Assembly (NCBI GenBank): GCA_024685135.1
Contig: JAIKWA010000050.1
Coordinates: 20,718-84,717 of the forward strand
DNA length: 64,000 bases
Reading direction: 5' to 3'
Source of the DNA: Saccharofermentans sp.
GTDB lineage: Bacteria; Bacillota; Clostridia; Saccharofermentanales; Saccharofermentanaceae
This document shows positions 2,598-10,815 of this stretch, in pieces; position 1 is the first letter of the stretch, and each line of letters opens with the position of its first letter. A program made the position numbers and the translations under genes. The notes beneath the pieces were generated by a model. It saw only the letters and a program-made list of their open reading frames with translations. It was not told the DNA's origin and made no database searches.

Positions 2598-3788
2598 ATG
2601 ATTTCCAGATCTATCAAGCAACAGTTAGCCGGCGGTTCAGAGATCCGCAAGATGTTCGAAGAGGGCAAGAGACTTAAGGCTATCTACGGTGACGACAACG
2701 TATTCGACTTCTCCATAGGTAACCCTGACTTAGAGCCTCCCAAAGAAGTAACAGAGGCTTTGGCAGAACTTGCAAACAACCCTACTCCCGGCATGCACGG
2801 CTACATGAGCAACAACGGCTACGAATCAACAAGAGCTGCGATCGCTTCCAAGAAGTCTGCTGAATCCGGTTTAGAGATCTCAAGCGGGGCTCTCTGCATG
2901 ACGGTCGGTGCTGCAGCTGCAATGAACGATGTATTGCACTCCATCTTAGATCCCGAAGATGAAGTTATCGTACTTGCTCCTTTCTTCATGGAGTACACTG
3001 GCTATATCAAGAACCACGGCGGCGTTCCGGTTATTGTTCCTACAGACGATAAGTTCATGCCTGTAATAGACAGGATCTCAGATGCTATCACGTCAAAGAC
3101 CAAGGCCATCATCATCAACTCACCTAACAATCCTTCAGGTGTTGTTTATTCAGAGGAGATGCTTACGGCAATTAACGATATGCTCCTTAGCAAGGATCAT
3201 GTTATCCATGTGATCTCCGATGAGCCTTATATCGATCTTGCATACGACGGCATCGAGGTTCCCTGCGCACTTAAGTACATCAAGAACCTTATCGTTTGCT
3301 TCTCATGGAGTAAGTCCTTATCACTCCCCGGTGAGCGTATCGGTTATGCTCTCGTATCCCCTAACCACGAGGACTACGAAGATCTTACTGCTGCAATAGC
3401 AATCTCCAACCGTACACTCGGAAGCGTTAATGCTCCTGCTATCTGGCAGAAGGTTATCGAGAAGGCACTTAATGCTAAGGTCGATGTTGCAAACTACGAG
3501 CATAGAAGAAACCTTCTTTATTCCAACATCATTGATGCAGGCTTCGATGCAGTTAAGCCCAACGGCGCTCTGTATATCTTCATGAACACACCTGAGGGGC
3601 TTGACGATAACGAGTTTGCCAAGGTTTGCGCATCCAAGAATCTCCTTCTCGTTAAGGGTTCTTCCTTCGCTTATCCCGGATACTGCCGTCTCGCATTCTG
3701 CGTATCTGAATCTACTATCGTAAATTCAAGGAAGGCATTCTTTGCCATCGCAGAAGAACTCGGCATCAGGCATAGAGCAAGCCTCTAA
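2598..3788 (+). CDS. Class I/II PLP-dependent aminotransferase
   Basis: A 396-aa fold-type I aminotransferase, close to bacterial aspartate/aromatic aminotransferases. Visible landmarks are the SIGNPDLEPP substrate segment near the N-terminus, NSPNNPSGVVY (the Asn that touches PLP), SDEPYIDLAY (the Asp that binds the pyridine nitrogen) and SWSKSLSLPGERIGY with the Schiff-base lysine. The C-terminal YCRLAFCVS supplies the carboxylate-binding arginine. The substrate cannot be read from sequence; aspartate is the usual one. AGGTGA lies shortly before the ATG. The gene follows the GGDEF/EAL gene by 8 nt, so the two are probably cotranscribed. Its stop overlaps the convergent sortase stop by 4 nt. 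Confidence 0.88.
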   Translation: MISRSIKQQLAGGSEIRKMFEEGKRLKAIYGDDNVFDFSIGNPDLEPPKEVTEALAELANNPTPGMHGYMSNNGYESTRAAIASKKSAESGLEISSGALCMTVGAAAAMNDVLHSILDPEDEVIVLAPFFMEYTGYIKNHGGVPVIVPTDDKFMPVIDRISDAITSKTKAIIINSPNNPSGVVYSEEMLTAINDMLLSKDHVIHVISDEPYIDLAYDGIEVPCALKYIKNLIVCFSWSKSLSLPGERIGYALVSPNHEDYEDLTAAIAISNRTLGSVNAPAIWQKVIEKALNAKVDVANYEHRRNLLYSNIIDAGFDAVKPNGALYIFMNTPEGLDDNEFAKVCASKNLLLVKGSSFAYPGYCRLAFCVSESTIVNSRKAFFAIAEELGIRHRASL

Positions 3789-4426
3789 TCACACAGATCA
3801 CAAACAGCAACAAAACGGTAACCTGCGCCGAGTTCAGTGGCGCAGGTTACTATTGTTAATCGGGGCATTTTGCTGGCACTTGCTGCAATGAGCCCTTCTA
3901 TATCACAGGGTGCTGCATTAAGTGTATCTGTTACTTCAAAATCCAATACTTCTCCCGATACCCGGGTAAAATGGACTTGCGCACCCACCTCTATCTCCTG
4001 GAGCCTGCAAAATATCGTATTAAGATGTCTGTTCCTGTGACCTAATATAGTACTGTTGCCTTTGTCTCCCGGCATAACTGAATCAGGCCATATGCAGACT
4101 CCGTATCTTAAAGCCACTCTGTCACACTCTATATAGCAGGGCTCTAACACTTCTATCGAAGGTATCTCCAGTACTCCTGCCAGATGAAGTGTCTCATTTT
4201 CAAAAGAAGACATATCAAGGTCTTCTTCTCCATTGATCGCCAAAAGGTCAGTGGCAGGCACTTGGATCTCAGACGGGATATCCCCTTCCATATAATCCTC
4301 AACTACATTCTTGGTTATATGTTCTCTTATCAATGTCTTGCAAGGTTCCTTAACGATATATATAAGACCTCCCAAAGATAACATCAGACAGATCACAAGT
4401 CCTGCCACGCTGACCTTACTTCTCAC
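3785..4426 (-). CDS. Sortase (LPXTG transpeptidase) dedicated to the upstream adhesin
   Basis: A 213-aa membrane-anchored transpeptidase that cleaves LPXTG signals and links proteins to peptidoglycan or pilin lysines. One N-terminal TM helix (about 6-24) precedes an extracytoplasmic sortase fold. The catalytic triad is visible as His130 in TILGHRNRH, Cys195 in LTIVTCATE and Arg204 in GYRFVAV. The class is uncertain: it lacks the C-terminal TM helix and lid typical of many pilin-polymerising class C enzymes and looks nearest class D or B. Its ATG overlaps the adhesin stop by 4 nt (ATGA), so translation is coupled. The DNA for the catalytic Cys-to-Arg stretch forms a 12-bp perfect hairpin (separate entry). 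Confidence 0.88.
   Translation of the reverse strand: MRSKVSVAGLVICLMLSLGGLIYIVKEPCKTLIREHITKNVVEDYMEGDIPSEIQVPATDLLAINGEEDLDMSSFENETLHLAGVLEIPSIEVLEPCYIECDRVALRYGVCIWPDSVMPGDKGNSTILGHRNRHLNTIFCRLQEIEVGAQVHFTRVSGEVLDFEVTDTLNAAPCDIEGLIAASASKMPRLTIVTCATELGAGYRFVAVCDLCD
3818..3850 (-). terminator. Terminator-like hairpin inside the sortase coding end
   Basis: Perfect 12-bp inverted repeat GTAACCTGCGCC / GGCGCAGGTTAC with a 9-nt loop. On minus it is followed by CGTTTTGTTGCTGTTTG. It is GC-rich and followed by a T-rich stretch, about 30 nt before the sortase stop, so it may end the adhesin-sortase transcript. It could also limit read-through from the convergent aminotransferase. Termination is inferred; the repeat itself is certain. 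Confidence 0.55.
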
Positions 4427-7400
4427 TTACCTTGTGTCCTCCTTCCCTTTGAGATGAATACCGTGACACCTAATGCGCCGGCAAGCGCGATAACGGCTGC
4501 GAGCATGACATGCTCTGAGATCTCCTCGCCTGTACTCGGCAGGTTCTTAACCGTGATGCTCTGATCAGTGCAGTTAAGATCGTTATGTCTTGCAATCTCA
4601 ACATCTGATGTCTGCACACCGGTCTCGATCTCTTCTTCCGTTGCTCTGTCGTAGATATTCTCGAAAACAACAACTATATCTCCTTCAACCATTCCTCTTG
4701 TGGAAAGCTTGACGGGCACTTCTATAACGCCTTCTGACTCTTCAGGCGTGAATGTAACATCTGATGCGACGATCTCACCATTCTCCATGACGGGCGTACC
4801 GTCTCTCATATATAAAGTTGCGACTATCTCATATTCTCTGCCGGGTTCAAGACCATGGTATGTAACCCTGTCAGTTATGGTCACGATGGAATCTGACCTC
4901 ATTGTCTTCAAGTCATCCGAGCTTCTTGCCGTAGTAACCACATAAGATCTTGTAAGGGTCTGATCTTCGTCTTCTATATCCGTATGTTCGCATATCAGGA
5001 CACCTTCTACCGTGAGATATTCGAATATAACGACATCTTCAACATCAAGAGGGATACTGACATCTTCAAATAAGACTTCAACAGATCCGTCAGACGATGC
5101 AGGCGTGAATACAGCACAAGATGTTATCTCATTGCCTGAACCGTCCTTAAGACGCATTCCTGTTGCCTTATCCACGATATAACCTGTTACCGTGTATTCG
5201 ATACCGGGTTCAAGAGACGAGTAAGTAACTATATCCTTAAGATCGAATTCATCGACAAAGCCGAGCGCATGAGTGCCTGTTGCAGTATCAGATGCATCAG
5301 TTCCGATATCAGGCATAGTAAGCGTCTGATCCGTATCTTCGATATCACAATGCTCGAAGGCAGATTCTCCGTCAAATAAAGTCTCGAAGGCAACGATAGA
5401 TGAGCCCTGAAGATCGTTGGTATTTATAACGAACGGAACTTCAACGATCTGGCTTCTTGCAGAAGCTACAAAGGTAACCTCCGATACATAGGCCGAGCCT
5501 TCCATATCGGTAAGCGCTTCACCTGTATCCTTGCACATAAGGCTTCCCTTGAGAATGTATGTATCTCCTATATTAAGCCCGCTCAGGCTGCAGTAGTCTG
5601 TTACCTCTATCTCCTCGCCCCTGCTCAGCATATGCGAATCTGTTATTCCGAGACTTACATCCTTAAGCATTGTGCCTAAGATAGGTCTTACATTAACAAA
5701 GCAATCCGGCATCTGATATTCATCTGCAAAGAAGTTAGATACTATAGGTCTGCTGTTATCTGCAGTTACCGAGAATTCATAGACTGTTTCATCTGCGATA
5801 TATCCCATAGGTGCTTTTGTCTCAACAAGGTAATATGTACCTGCAGAGAGCTTCAGCAATTTATATATACCCTCTTCTTCGCTGTAAGTAAGTGTTCCTC
5901 TTAAGTTTGTTAGTTCCTTATCGTCAAATACTTCAAATTCTGCCCCCTTAAGACCATTCCCCTCTTGATCGGTCTTATTTACATAAACTCCGCCTGCGAT
6001 ATTGGAGATCGCAAGCTCGTATGTTGCAACTTCAAAGCCTTCGATGCATGTATCCTTGGATTCGATAACTACAGGTGCGAAGTTAGGTGTATCCGTACTG
6101 TTACCGTCGCTATCGGTATACAGATATCCGTCAGGAAGACTTGTCTCAACTACGACATAGCTTCCGGGCCTTAATCCTGACACTGTATAGATACCGTTAT
6201 CTTCGACGAAGTCAGCATTACCGTTCGTACTTACGCTATTAGCTTCAGGTTCATCTGATGTATGGATGCCGTCACCATTTGTATCTTCGTAAATGGTAAA
6301 GCCTGCTCCGCTTAAAAGCTCACCTGTATCTATATCCTTCTTTACTACGGATACACTTGCAGTATAAGGAACCTGTAATACATCAAGTGACATATCGTTG
6401 CTATTTCCTACAGTAAAAGGAACAGCCTCGCTTGCAACATAGTATCCAAAAGGAGACTGAGTCTCAATCAGAAGATAAGCTCCCGTAAAAAGTCCTTCAA
6501 TAACGAGCTTGCCGTCCCTATCTGTATCTTCTATCTGAGATCTTGTCTCCATCTCATCGTCGTCTAATATGCCGTTGGCATTAAGATCCTTATACAGATC
6601 GAAGGTGACACAGCTTCCTTCGTAACCGCTTATAGTCTCTCCTGTTACGGAGTCCTTCTTATTTATGGTGACATCTATACATATCCTGTTATTGCATGTT
6701 ACATACAAGGACTGGTTATCAGAGTTCTCTGTAAGGCGGATAACCTTATATTCGGTATCCTCGCCTTCCCAGTAGCACTTATAGCCTGAAGGCGTGATCT
6801 CCTTTACGCGGTACCAGCCAAGAGGAAGGTCTTCGAATCTTGCTATACCTTCAGCATCTGTAGTCTTAATGGCACATACGGTATTCTGCCATTCGGGGCT
6901 TAAACCATTGCCGCCATAGTAGAGATTAAACCTGATATCAGCGATACTTCCGTCCTCAGATACCTTGCCTACTACAAGATCTGCCTGACCTCTGTCGTTG
7001 CTTACATTCTGAGTTATCGTTGTAGCAGAAGGCAGACTTATGTTCTTATACCAGTAGCTTCCGTCTGAAGATCTCGTAAAGCCTTCGGGCGTATAGTATG
7101 TATATGCCGCAGTGCTTCCCTGCATGTATCTGTCGGTAGGAACGATCTCACGAAGCTGATATGTACCGGATGGGACATTAAGCGCAGCAAGGTTACCACC
7201 GCCTCCTGTAGTCCATATGACCTTACCGTCACTACCGGTCACGCCCTTGGCAAGCTTTATCGTTCCGCCTGTATTCCACAGCTCGAACATAAAGCCCTGA
7301 GAGTTATCCTCACTGTCCGCAACGGATTTGTTTACCACAAGAGATGAATTGTTATGGTCGTTGGTACAGGTAAAATCGTATACCTTATATCCTTCTGCGG

Positions 7401-9003
7401 TAAACGAATAAGAATATCTGGTCTGAGATCTTCTGGTCCAGCCCGTAGTCTTATTCTCCACACTGTAGTTTAATACATTGCCGTCCAGGCATTTAAACTG
7501 CGGTATTACAAAATCTTCGTATATCGTATATGTCACACCCTTTTGCAGGGGAAAATACTTACCTGATACCTTAAGACCTGATGCGGTATACCAGTTCCAT
7601 GCACCCGATACATACTTATAGACACCTACAAGGGTATTGCCGCTATACAGACTGAATACTGTCTGATTTACATTCAAACCCGTATTAGTAGTCTTGGTGA
7701 TGGATACCGAAGATGACTCAAGCATAAAGCCTGAGGTGTTACCGGCATTCTGATCGGTAGTCGCCTGATTAGTAACTCTAATGCTCTCACCGCTGAGTCT
7801 GTAATTACTTATGGTCGCATTGTACAGCTCAGTCCAGATACCGCTGCTGTCTATCTTCCTTATCTTGTAGTTCATTGTACCTGTTGTGGTATTTACGTTA
7901 TAAAGGTTCATGTCCACCTGATAGACGTTCTCGTCGAAGAAGCGGTATTCGGCTCTTATATCTTCTACCTGAGGCTCGCCGTCAGCTCCCCAGCCGCTGT
8001 ATCTTAGATCTACTCCATCAGATCCGTCCAAGAGCATAAACGGACAGAAAGTTTCCTTGAGATACAGGAACTTATAGTATCCTTCGTTATCTCTTGTATC
8101 GAAGTCCAGCAAAATCCTCTTAGACCCGTCGTCGCCCCAGTAGTTGACGCAGATACCGTCGAGGCTGTCGTCAGTTACTCTGCCTATGGCATTTGTACCG
8201 GCCCTTGCATCCTCCAAAGTCTCGTATACGCTGAATGTCGCACCCGCAAGTCTCATCCCGCTCGCAGTGCGCTTATCTATATACATGTTGGCATAAGCAT
8301 TGACCGGTGTGGTCCTGAAGCGCTGCATATAGGTAATTACCTTGCCGAGCTTGAGTTCGCCTATTATGTGAGCTACCCTCTTCTCGGATACTCCCGAATC
8401 GGGATCCGAATGCCACATATATGCGCCGTGACCGTCGCTTCCGTCCTTAACACCGGAATAGACACCGATATGAAGGTTCTTACCGTTCTGATCGTAGAAG
8501 AGCAAGACATCACCTGGCACGGAATTTGAAGATATCCAGTTATCTATATCGCTGTCAGACCAGCCTGTGGCATCGAAGGGCGCAGAACCTGCTATGGCCT
8601 TGCGCTCTACATTCGGATCACCTGTATTTATCTCACCTGCAAAGAGCTTCAGATATTCCTGTACCTGCATATTGCCGTCGCAGGCAATATAGCCGTTGAA
8701 ATTACAGCAGCCCGCATCGAGCAGGACTCTTGCAAGATAGTTGGTGCAGTCCATCTCCTCGTAGGACCTTCCGTTATATCTTGCAGCGCAGGAGAGGATC
8801 TTATTCCTCGTCTGCTCTGCTGACCATGGAAACCATTCGGATATGCTTCCGGTATTACCTGTAAAATCGTAGGCATCCATATATAAAGGCGGCGTATATT
8901 CAGGCGCCGCCAAGACAAGAGAACTGCCGTAAAAGCCCAGCACCACGGTAAGCAGTACCAGCATGGCTGTTATCTTGTAAATAGATCTGTTTCTAACTCC
9001 CAT
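4423..9003 (-). CDS. Giant LPXTG surface adhesin: NlpC/P60-like N-terminus, CnaB (SpaA-like) and VaFE repeats
   Basis: A 1526-aa cell-wall protein. A signal peptide spans about 1-33. Residues about 60-235 look like an NlpC/P60-type papain-fold amidase, with Cys86 in MDCTNYLARVLL and His178 in LHIGVYSG. Next come six or seven CnaB/SpaA-type modules beginning with VxxxK pilin motifs (VVNKSVAD, VVKKDIDTG, VYVNKTDQEG). Two of them carry EF-hand-like loops (DLNANGILDDDE, DTNGDGIHTSDE) as in SdrD B-type repeats. Three VaFE repeats follow, each with a V(A/I/V)FE motif and ending HCDIEDTDQTLT, HTDIEDEDQTLT or HNDLNCTDQSIT; such repeats form Thr-Gln ester crosslinks. LPSTG lies near 1488, followed by a TM helix and GRRTQGK. 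GGAGGAGATGAG precedes the ATG. The operon partners are the DUF5688 gene and the sortase. The role, attachment or pilus tip, is inferred. Confidence 0.88.
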   Translation of the reverse strand: MGVRNRSIYKITAMLVLLTVVLGFYGSSLVLAAPEYTPPLYMDAYDFTGNTGSISEWFPWSAEQTRNKILSCAARYNGRSYEEMDCTNYLARVLLDAGCCNFNGYIACDGNMQVQEYLKLFAGEINTGDPNVERKAIAGSAPFDATGWSDSDIDNWISSNSVPGDVLLFYDQNGKNLHIGVYSGVKDGSDGHGAYMWHSDPDSGVSEKRVAHIIGELKLGKVITYMQRFRTTPVNAYANMYIDKRTASGMRLAGATFSVYETLEDARAGTNAIGRVTDDSLDGICVNYWGDDGSKRILLDFDTRDNEGYYKFLYLKETFCPFMLLDGSDGVDLRYSGWGADGEPQVEDIRAEYRFFDENVYQVDMNLYNVNTTTGTMNYKIRKIDSSGIWTELYNATISNYRLSGESIRVTNQATTDQNAGNTSGFMLESSSVSITKTTNTGLNVNQTVFSLYSGNTLVGVYKYVSGAWNWYTASGLKVSGKYFPLQKGVTYTIYEDFVIPQFKCLDGNVLNYSVENKTTGWTRRSQTRYSYSFTAEGYKVYDFTCTNDHNNSSLVVNKSVADSEDNSQGFMFELWNTGGTIKLAKGVTGSDGKVIWTTGGGGNLAALNVPSGTYQLREIVPTDRYMQGSTAAYTYYTPEGFTRSSDGSYWYKNISLPSATTITQNVSNDRGQADLVVGKVSEDGSIADIRFNLYYGGNGLSPEWQNTVCAIKTTDAEGIARFEDLPLGWYRVKEITPSGYKCYWEGEDTEYKVIRLTENSDNQSLYVTCNNRICIDVTINKKDSVTGETISGYEGSCVTFDLYKDLNANGILDDDEMETRSQIEDTDRDGKLVIEGLFTGAYLLIETQSPFGYYVASEAVPFTVGNSNDMSLDVLQVPYTASVSVVKKDIDTGELLSGAGFTIYEDTNGDGIHTSDEPEANSVSTNGNADFVEDNGIYTVSGLRPGSYVVVETSLPDGYLYTDSDGNSTDTPNFAPVVIESKDTCIEGFEVATYELAISNIAGGVYVNKTDQEGNGLKGAEFEVFDDKELTNLRGTLTYSEEEGIYKLLKLSAGTYYLVETKAPMGYIADETVYEFSVTADNSRPIVSNFFADEYQMPDCFVNVRPILGTMLKDVSLGITDSHMLSRGEEIEVTDYCSLSGLNIGDTYILKGSLMCKDTGEALTDMEGSAYVSEVTFVASARSQIVEVPFVINTNDLQGSSIVAFETLFDGESAFEHCDIEDTDQTLTMPDIGTDASDTATGTHALGFVDEFDLKDIVTYSSLEPGIEYTVTGYIVDKATGMRLKDGSGNEITSCAVFTPASSDGSVEVLFEDVSIPLDVEDVVIFEYLTVEGVLICEHTDIEDEDQTLTRSYVVTTARSSDDLKTMRSDSIVTITDRVTYHGLEPGREYEIVATLYMRDGTPVMENGEIVASDVTFTPEESEGVIEVPVKLSTRGMVEGDIVVVFENIYDRATEEEIETGVQTSDVEIARHNDLNCTDQSITVKNLPSTGEEISEHVMLAAVIALAGALGVTVFISKGRRTQGK

Positions 9004-9018
9004 CTCATCTCCTCCGTC

Positions 9019-9978
9019 TTAAGCCACTACATCGCAGCTGGCCACTCTCCTGATCTGATTATCTGCCCTCGAATACAGATAAACGCTGTCAGACAATTTG
9101 TCCTGCGAAGACACCTGAGTCATGTTGGTATCCTTAACGAGCTTGAGCAGTTTGGATCTGCCCTTATAGAACTCTGCAGAGAGGATGATGAGGTCGTGTA
9201 TAGAAGACGGCAGGACATAGCAATCCGTACCGATGATGTCAGCCGCCCTCTTGATAACATCGGGATACAAGAGTGCGTCCGCACCGAAATACCCGATGCT
9301 GTTAGTGACCACATATACTCTCTCGTTATTGGGGATATTGTTAAAACCCGGGAACTCCTCGGTCATGTCCACCTTGCTTCCCCTTCTGTCGTTTACGAGC
9401 CTTAAAAGAGTCTGCTCGATCCTCTCGACCATAAAGGGCAGCATATGAGGGGTATTCTTCCTGGCATGCTCGTACAGATCCTCTTCAGACCAGCCTGCGC
9501 TCTGGCAGACCTCATTGGTCACAATAAAGCCGCTCAGGCCCCTCTGATCCACATGAGTGATAGCGCGGTATATGACCGTAAGATCTTCGAATTCTCTGTG
9601 CGGACACTTCTCGATAAGAGAAGCATTCATGTTCTTAGAGATCAGCTGGAAGATTATCTTGTTCTTAAAGCTTGACAGATCGCTCAGATCCGGGATCTTA
9701 GGTGCGACCTTGACTGAATCCTCCAGATATTTTGCCTGGTTTACCATCGTCCTCTCAAAATTGCCCTCTTCGAGATACTGTTCGTACATACGCTCAAGAT
9801 AAAAAGTAGGGGCCACATATGACCCCTTCTTATCCTTCGGCGTGATGGTGATGCCCGTCAGTTCTTCATTTACCTTGCTTACCTTGTGTTCAACGAGTTT
9901 GCAATTGAAATACCGCTCCGGCATGTAATCCATAAACTCATCGAGAACTCTCTTCCTAAACTCTTCAAAATCCATCAT
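9019..9978 (-). CDS. DUF5688 family protein
   Basis: I recognise this as the DUF5688 family, common in gut and rumen Clostridia and of unknown function. The track ORF (to 10077) is too long: AAGGAGGT sits 7 nt before the ATG at 9978, giving a 319-aa product starting MMDFEEFRKRVLDEFMDYMPE. It is a soluble alpha/beta protein with no signal peptide. Visible blocks are GITITPKDKKGSYVAPTFYL near the N-terminus, a helical middle and NSIGYFGADALLYPDVIKRAA near the C-terminus. It is the first gene of the adhesin operon, 15 nt before the adhesin ATG. It sits just after a promoter and a leader terminator, so it may be made together with, or act on, the surface structure. That link is only by position. 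Confidence 0.75.
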   Translation of the reverse strand: MMDFEEFRKRVLDEFMDYMPERYFNCKLVEHKVSKVNEELTGITITPKDKKGSYVAPTFYLERMYEQYLEEGNFERTMVNQAKYLEDSVKVAPKIPDLSDLSSFKNKIIFQLISKNMNASLIEKCPHREFEDLTVIYRAITHVDQRGLSGFIVTNEVCQSAGWSEEDLYEHARKNTPHMLPFMVERIEQTLLRLVNDRRGSKVDMTEEFPGFNNIPNNERVYVVTNSIGYFGADALLYPDVIKRAADIIGTDCYVLPSSIHDLIILSAEFYKGRSKLLKLVKDTNMTQVSSQDKLSDSVYLYSRADNQIRRVASCDVVA

Positions 9979-10006
9979 CAAGATGACCTCCTTAAATATT
10001 CCCAAT

Positions 10007-10033
10007 AAAAAACGCACCGGCATGCGGTGCGTT
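10007..10033 (-). terminator. Intrinsic terminator in the leader of the DUF5688-adhesin operon
   Basis: Stem AACGCACCG / CGGTGCGTT (9 bp, loop of 5) followed on minus by a T tract (complement of AAAAAA at 10007-10012). It lies about 12 nt downstream of the predicted transcription start for the promoter at 10053-10081 and 28 nt before the DUF5688 start. It is thus either an attenuator for the adhesin operon or the end of the upstream operon. Confidence 0.8.
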
Positions 10034-10052
10034 ATCTGATTGGGTAGCCTAT

Positions 10053-10081
10053 ATAATAGAAAGCCTTCGAGTCTCATTCAA
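10053..10081 (-). promoter_or_regulatory. Sigma-A-type promoter for the DUF5688-adhesin-sortase operon
   Basis: On minus: TTGAAT (10081-10076), 17-nt spacer, TATTAT (10058-10053). Transcription would start near 10046, just before the hairpin at 10033-10011. Both hexamers differ from consensus at one or two positions. Confidence 0.65.
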
Positions 10082-10132
10082 TATGTTAAAGTCTCATTTT
10101 AAGGGGGTGTTTTTGAAGATCTCAGTATTCAG

Positions 10133-10172
10133 AAAACCTTCTGAAGCCGCAATTTATTGGCTTACAGGTTTT
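10133..10172 (-). terminator. Imperfect terminator hairpin overlapping the thiN stop
   Basis: On minus, AAAACCTGTAAGCC pairs with GGCTTCAGAAGGTTTT around a 10-nt loop, with a 2-nt bulge, and ends in a short T run. It begins inside the last codons of the thiamine pyrophosphokinase gene and would close the long secA-to-thiN run. Confidence 0.4.
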
Positions 10173-10815
10173 TTGTTACGATTACGGCAAGTCTGCCGTT
10201 TTCGATCGAAACACTGATTTCCCTCGCATCTTTTGCGGGGTGATTGCTGAAGGTAAGAGACTTACCTGCAGTAACATCGATCCCTTCTAACGGATAGTAA
10301 AGACCTGAAGCTCTTATGCCGGCAGCGGGAGCAGTAAAATCCAAAGGTGCAAGAGATACTGCAAGATCTGCTCCTTCTTCTATTCCTATGGTTATCCCGG
10401 ACTTGCCGTTCATGGGATAGATATCCGTTATGCCGTCAGATAAGACGATGCTGTTTAAGCTTTTCCTCAAACCCGTTGCAAGCTGGATGTTTGCGATAAC
10501 GTGGTCTATCCTGCCGTTTGATATCGGGCAGATAAGGATAACGTCGCTTCCTTCGGGGACTGTATTAAGACAGATCTCGCTGTCGGTCCAATCCTTTTCG
10601 ATCGGGAAGCGGTTAACAGGGATATTATTGTATTCAAGGAACCTGAGTCCTTCAGCTGATACGGAATCGAGATCGCCGTAGCAGGATCTGGGGATGATGC
10701 CATGCTTTAAGCAGAAATCTACGCCGCCGTCAGCGCAGATGACATAGTCGTCTTCTTTGATCCTCGTGCTTGCCGCAGGATCTATGGGACCCGATGTGAT
10801 TATGCAGTAACGCAA
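10162..10815 (-). CDS. thiN: Thiamine pyrophosphokinase
   Basis: A 217-aa cytoplasmic enzyme that transfers pyrophosphate from ATP to thiamine to make thiamine diphosphate. Family markers are ICADGGVDFCLKHGIIP (the nucleotide-binding ADGG), YGDLDSVS (the GDxDS metal site) and EKDWTDSEICL (the KDxTDxE site). The C-terminal beta sandwich is present (SGLYYPLEG, SNHPAKDAREISVSIENGRLAVI). The length is normal. The start overlaps the rpe stop by 16 nt. It is the last gene of the long operon. thiN after rpe and rsgA is the standard order in many Firmicutes, which supports the call. Confidence 0.93.
   Translation of the reverse strand: MRYCIITSGPIDPAASTRIKEDDYVICADGGVDFCLKHGIIPRSCYGDLDSVSAEGLRFLEYNNIPVNRFPIEKDWTDSEICLNTVPEGSDVILICPISNGRIDHVIANIQLATGLRKSLNSIVLSDGITDIYPMNGKSGITIGIEEGADLAVSLAPLDFTAPAAGIRASGLYYPLEGIDVTAGKSLTFSNHPAKDAREISVSIENGRLAVIVTKNL

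Follow-up and report, generated by a model that had tools for sequence, protein, structure and literature searches.

A conserved intrinsic terminator between the predicted promoter and first gene of a DUF5688-surface protein operon, a candidate ligand-free attenuator in Saccharofermentans

Does the terminator hairpin that lies between thiN and the DUF5688-adhesin-sortase operon of Saccharofermentans sp. end the first of these transcripts, or does it stand in the leader of the second? The window (the whole stretch of 64,000 nucleotides that was analysed) carries on its minus strand the thiamine pyrophosphokinase gene thiN (10162..10815; Pfam TPK_catalytic, 1.2e-21, and TPK_B1_binding), the last gene of the upstream operon rsgA-rpe-thiN, followed by genes for a DUF5688 protein (9019..9978, first in its operon, ATG at 9978-9976; Pfam DUF5688, 1.1e-72), a large LPXTG surface protein with SpaA and T-Q ester bond domains (4423..9003; Pfam) and a sortase (3785..4426; Pfam Sortase, 6.1e-18). 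Read on that strand from thiN to DUF5688, the intergenic region contains in order the repeat AATGAGACT, TTGAAT, 17 nt, TATTAT, a predicted transcription start (+1) at about 10046, ACCCAATCAGAT, the hairpin, TTTT, ATTGGG, AAGGAGG and ATG. The promoter scan places the -35 element TTGAAT at 10081-10076 and the -10 element TATTAT at 10058-10053. The hairpin AACGCACCG-CATGC-CGGTGCGTT (10011..10033; terminator score 24.8 in the scans) starts 13 nt past the predicted +1 and forms a perfect 9-bp stem, AACGCACCG/CGGTGCGTT, with six GC pairs and the loop CATGC. A T tract, TTTTTT (10007..10012), whose first two T are paired in the stem, lies directly behind it, and the ribosome binding site AAGGAGG is at 9987..9993; by sequence this GC-rich stem with a T-rich tract is an intrinsic terminator. 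The earlier note had described this arrangement, with a promoter, a stem and T tract (10033-10007) about 13 nt past +1 and only then the Shine-Dalgarno (SD) sequence of the operon, and the scans bear it out. An in-frame upstream ORF through the hairpin (10077-9978), having no SD in front, was set aside.

At a single locus the pattern is unremarkable, the promoter match alone being not above chance (22 promoter-like sites per 20 kb vs 32.5 +/- 6.1 in shuffles) and terminator-like sites being mildly enriched (21 vs 13.7 in shuffles of a 20-kb scan), and its significance therefore rests on conservation in 70 orthologous loci. These were obtained by searching 85 same-genus genomes with the DUF5688 protein, retrieving the loci and leaving out DUF5688 paralogs at other places. 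Across this genus of uncultured Clostridia (about 70 species), the order promoter, hairpin and T tract, SD, DUF5688 start codon is found in all 70 leaders, with the -35 element and the position of the -10 element conserved and with DUF5688 protein identity among relatives down to about 25%. The hairpin sequence is wholly different between clades while its form is retained; five of the ten stem pairs show two-sided changes among 27 aligned orthologous leaders. In the same alignment T6 is invariant, more so than any other part of the leader, and the loop and outer arms vary. The T run is at least six long in 55 of 67 leaders, and the terminator score is above zero in 67 of 70, the non-positive scores (L028, L029, L100) arising where the script anchored a wrong hairpin and the actual hairpins are intact.

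Across the genus the operon mostly encodes a surface protein; the gene behind DUF5688 varies by species and encodes a SpaA/T-Q adhesin, a thioester-domain protein or a subtilase. At L012, L017, L024, L028, L030 and L032 the leader and DUF5688 are constant and the gene behind them changes (subtilase, thioester-domain or SpaA surface protein). Leader and DUF5688 would together make a constant expression cassette with variable cargo. Genes for PD-(D/E)XK transposase-type nucleases lie directly behind DUF5688 at L019:2453-3289, L051:657-1487 and L055:2474-3268, identified by Pfam PDDEXK_2 for L051 and by similar sequence for the other two. In the sister genus g20, DUF5688 genes lack such a leader and immediately follow another gene; there (L161-L180) DUF5688 mostly follows a RadC/JAB-like gene, recognised by eye from a HNHPSGDPTPSEED-type motif, leaderless and as on mobile elements. 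The copy in the adhesin operon may be the domesticated one. As to DUF5688 as a regulator, no solved relative was found (best structure match 7a0h, E 0.047), the window's DUF5688 protein has no PHROG match, and its AlphaFold model, run without an alignment, is uninformative (pLDDT 35).

Which operon owns the hairpin can be read from what its position follows. Where the thiN stop could be measured (41 loci), the hairpin lies 19.3 nt from the -10 element (standard deviation 2.1) and 96 nt from the upstream stop codon (standard deviation 28.1). The module is retained where rpe and not thiN is upstream (L094, L095, L097, L107), where two genes intervene between thiN and the promoter (L101, L115, L116), and at L114, where DUF5688 sits behind an unrelated gene. 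DUF5688 paralogs elsewhere in the genomes are without the hairpin, and L120 and L122 show the usual order, with the terminator of the upstream gene ahead of the promoter. From the start of the T tract to the ATG there are 29-40 nt across orthologs, too few for a second promoter between T tract and SD, leaving a terminator between predicted promoter and first gene with no promoter in between. Because it is locked to the -10 element and not to the stop codon, survives changes of the upstream gene and is absent at the paralogs, the hairpin is, at the level of sequence, part of the downstream DUF5688-operon leader. The placement of a terminator between promoter and first gene, first proposed from this locus, thus holds in every ortholog analysed, with the promoter upstream of the hairpin and the hairpin positioned by it and not by thiN.

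Two features of the promoter region had not figured in the earlier note, the first being the 9-bp sequence AATGAGACT, directly repeated with 20-bp spacing across the -35 element and the DNA upstream of it. Its distal copy (10090..10098, minus strand) is a putative regulator half-site, and its proximal copy (10070..10078, minus strand) overlaps the -35 element and the spacer. A GAGACT direct repeat at 20-21 bp spacing, overlapping the -35 element, is present in 45 of the 70 orthologous loci. No second site in the genome combines TTGAATGAGACT with its partner, and TTGAATGAGACT in this layout is unique in the genome; together with the conservation of the repeat, this suggests that a dedicated regulator of initiation acts through it. 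A GAGACT-repeat regulon was rejected for lack of a comparable second genomic site, L062 sharing the spacing but not being a leader. A phase-variable invertible promoter was likewise rejected, as no good pair of inverted-repeat arms flanks the promoter in the region searched (9900-10300). The -10 region at 10050-10059 is near-palindromic (TATATAATAG on the plus strand), with a perfect TATAAT on the opposite strand. This plus-strand TATAAT precedes a plus-strand ORF of 30-odd codons with an SD-like GGGGG, and it has no good -35 element.

The second feature is a pair of outer arms, CCCAAT (10039..10044, minus strand), 1-2 nt after the predicted +1, and ATTGGG (10001..10006, minus strand), downstream of the T tract, which came out of the leader fold and the swap tests and pair across the T tract, beginning beside the predicted +1. 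Other species have different arms that also pair, such as GCAA/TTGC, CGTAAC/GTTGCG and CCGGG/CCCGG.

Attenuators are usually recognised by a sensor or an antiterminator. Neither is visible in the DUF5688 leader, which is nevertheless found genus-wide before an operon with a varying second gene. Folding of the segment between +1 and the end of the 5' arm gives a median energy of -0.4 kcal/mol and no competing antiterminator, in keeping with the expectation that so short a leader leaves no room for a classical one. No mutually exclusive antiterminator or sensing RNA was found in the leader, and Rfam returned no family at gathering score at this site, only weak sub-threshold matches, of which the sRNA ncr1241 (E 0.013, 27 bits vs 60) was treated as chance. 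The SAM riboswitch before metK (L157, an Rfam match) in this genome is a real attenuator whose terminator likewise stands just upstream of the SD. That leader and the T-box-like leader of aspS (L142, read by eye, with no Rfam match) resemble the DUF5688 leader in placing a terminator 28-36 nt before the start codon, as an attenuator (a proposed one in the DUF5688 case), but both have a long sensing domain upstream, for which the DUF5688 leader has no room.

A closer parallel is offered by NusA of Bacillus subtilis, which controls its own gene by leader termination with no ligand (PMC12288461). The B. subtilis nusA-operon leader and the rimP leaders of the genus (L133, L181-L194) share with the DUF5688 leader a promoter, a short leader, an intrinsic terminator, an SD and a first gene, with no aptamer; in the nusA leader termination efficiency is the regulated step (PMC12288461). 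The rimP leader (L133 = G000:C128:7372-7419, minus strand; L181-L194), with its promoter, T6 terminator hairpin, SD and competing 5' stem, is, from its layout, probably a nusA-type autoregulated attenuator. The analogy has limits: the rimP leaders carry a competing 5' stem, GUUC...GAAC, of about -5 kcal/mol (eight folded), whereas the DUF5688 leader has about 13 nt before its hairpin and no such competitor, and the gene behind the DUF5688 leader does not belong to an elongation-factor operon as in nusA and rimP.

We narrowly favour the proposal that the hairpin is a ligand-free, promoter-proximal attenuator of the DUF5688-surface-protein operon, doubling as an insulator and possibly yielding a read-through mRNA with a protected 5' end. 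RNA polymerase would start at the conserved promoter, at about 10046, make some 40 nt of RNA and meet the terminator; most polymerases would stop there, and a fraction would read through into the operon. Since there is no aptamer and no competing antiterminator, this fraction would depend on terminator strength and on the general elongation factors NusA and NusG, as in the B. subtilis NusA leader, and by analogy with that ligand-free autoregulation such tuning is the simplest mechanism. Initiation would probably be controlled by the regulator of the GAGACT repeat. In the read-through mRNA, pairing of the outer arms would enclose the T tract and sequester the 5' end, protecting the few full-length transcripts. 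If real, the leader would offer a small natural model of how polymerase gets past a terminator 40 nt from its promoter, and of whether promoter distance, NusA/NusG level or another factor decides the passage.

The outer arms also bear on a different account, in which the element is a 5'-terminal stem-loop stabiliser guarding the operon mRNA from 5'-end dependent decay, and its terminator shape is incidental or inactive so near the promoter. The predicted +1 is at the stem base in most leaders and forms a base pair in 40 of 67. Counted from this predicted +1, two or more of the first four nucleotides pair beyond the T tract in 52 leaders out of the 67; ordinary terminators show this in 12-15 of 30 cases, and leaders with shuffled flanks in 26.6 of 67. 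Each leader's own arms pair better than swapped ones, only 2 of 20,000 permutations being as good. In B. subtilis, RppH requires at least two unpaired 5' nucleotides (PMC3997798), and the outer arms would fit protection of the read-through mRNA from such decay (PMC3997798). The stem-loop stabilisers of aprE (B. subtilis), ompA (E. coli) and papA are similar in having a stem-loop at or next to the 5' end, as predicted for the DUF5688 leader, and the SD downstream (PMC3997798), but the DUF5688 leader, unlike theirs, has a conserved terminator T tract in its stem, and its stabilising role is putative. Support for pairing of the stem base with the predicted 5' end across the T tract is moderate, since relatedness is not fully removed, the +1 is predicted, such pairing is also frequent at this genome's ordinary terminators, and some species (L022, L109) retain hairpin and T tract with a weak outer pairing or none. 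A pure stabiliser would have no need for an invariant T6 right behind the stem, and with start sites predicted and the pairing weak or lost at L022 and L109 we consider stabilisation unlikely as the whole explanation.

LoaP is a NusG-type antiterminator that acts on costly operons. It is a candidate for dedicated protein antitermination, in which a factor binding RNA or polymerase would read the hairpin or promoter region and let polymerase pass when induced. A strongly conserved block with no RNA-based relief is what such a scheme would leave, LoaP (NF033641) scores above cut-off in 39 of the 85 genomes, including the window's own (G000), and many of the hairpin loops are UNCG, like the LoaP target. 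Near-complete genomes without LoaP over the cut-off (e.g. G001, G007, G016, G061, G090) keep the leader, however, for which reason LoaP was rejected as an obligatory factor, and UNCG loops occur in genomes without LoaP too. The LoaP-controlled dfn and mln leaders of Bacillus velezensis likewise place an intrinsic terminator, often with a UNCG loop, before a costly operon, but in dfn the leader is long and includes, ahead of the terminator, a separate small hairpin to which LoaP binds (PMC12691694), whereas in the DUF5688 leader only about 13 nt precede the terminator stem and no separate small UNCG hairpin was found there; nor is LoaP always present in the genomes that carry this leader. No candidate gene is tied to the leader. 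The dedicated antitermination protein to which the short leader had seemed to point thus failed to emerge, LoaP being not obligatory and no other candidate having been found, and we regard this mechanism as rather unlikely.

The attenuator that we favour would share its hairpin with the upstream operon. Between upstream gene and promoter, 67 of the 70 loci have no further terminator, which makes the hairpin the sole terminator for the upstream operon, and the upstream genes are co-directional in the loci checked; a double role as leader terminator and end of the upstream operon is therefore likely. As the only terminator for polymerases arriving from the thiN operon, the hairpin would also stop these and insulate the costly surface-protein operon. 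Part of the conservation may accordingly reflect the need to end the upstream operon, and with co-directional upstream genes no locus separates the two roles cleanly. The same facts would suit a hairpin that is nothing but the upstream terminator, the promoter-like sequence being weak or unimportant and the DUF5688 operon transcribed by rare read-through or from elsewhere. The promoter elements and the GAGACT repeat are, however, conserved alongside the hairpin, and the module is kept behind several kinds of upstream gene. The simpler view, raised at the outset, that the hairpin only ends thiN and the real promoter lies elsewhere is disfavoured, because the promoter is upstream in all orthologs, it sets the position of the hairpin where the stop codon does not, no other promoter has space between T tract and SD and there is no antiterminator, and we judge the terminator-only account quite improbable.

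Young elongation complexes may respond poorly to a terminator at +40, and the least probable reading that we considered, a doubtful one, is that the hairpin is blind to its own promoter, stopping mature complexes from upstream and passing its own young ones (sigma-bound or NusA-less, at about +40) before the outer arms seal the 5' end of the mRNA, in which case one element would be terminator, insulator and 5' cap.

Leaders of the kind proposed here can escape annotation in which any intergenic terminator is credited to the gene upstream. The 31 strong intergenic terminators in 444 kb of the genome include several just before a same-strand gene start, among them those of the metK SAM riboswitch, the aspS T-box-like leader, a Cys-rich ORF/radical SAM pair, the rimP leader and the DUF5688 leader. 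In the Cys-rich case (L156, minus strand), a short Cys-rich ORF comes first, then the terminator (9362-9387 of the reverse complement) and then a radical SAM gene; the arrangement resembles that of a SCIFF-type peptide and its maturase, with a putative attenuating terminator between them. At L143:10120-10157, a strong palindrome with T6 overlaps a consensus promoter, TTGACA-17-TATATT, immediately upstream of the SD of a gene for a small metal-binding-type protein, and this palindrome may be an operator rather than a terminator.
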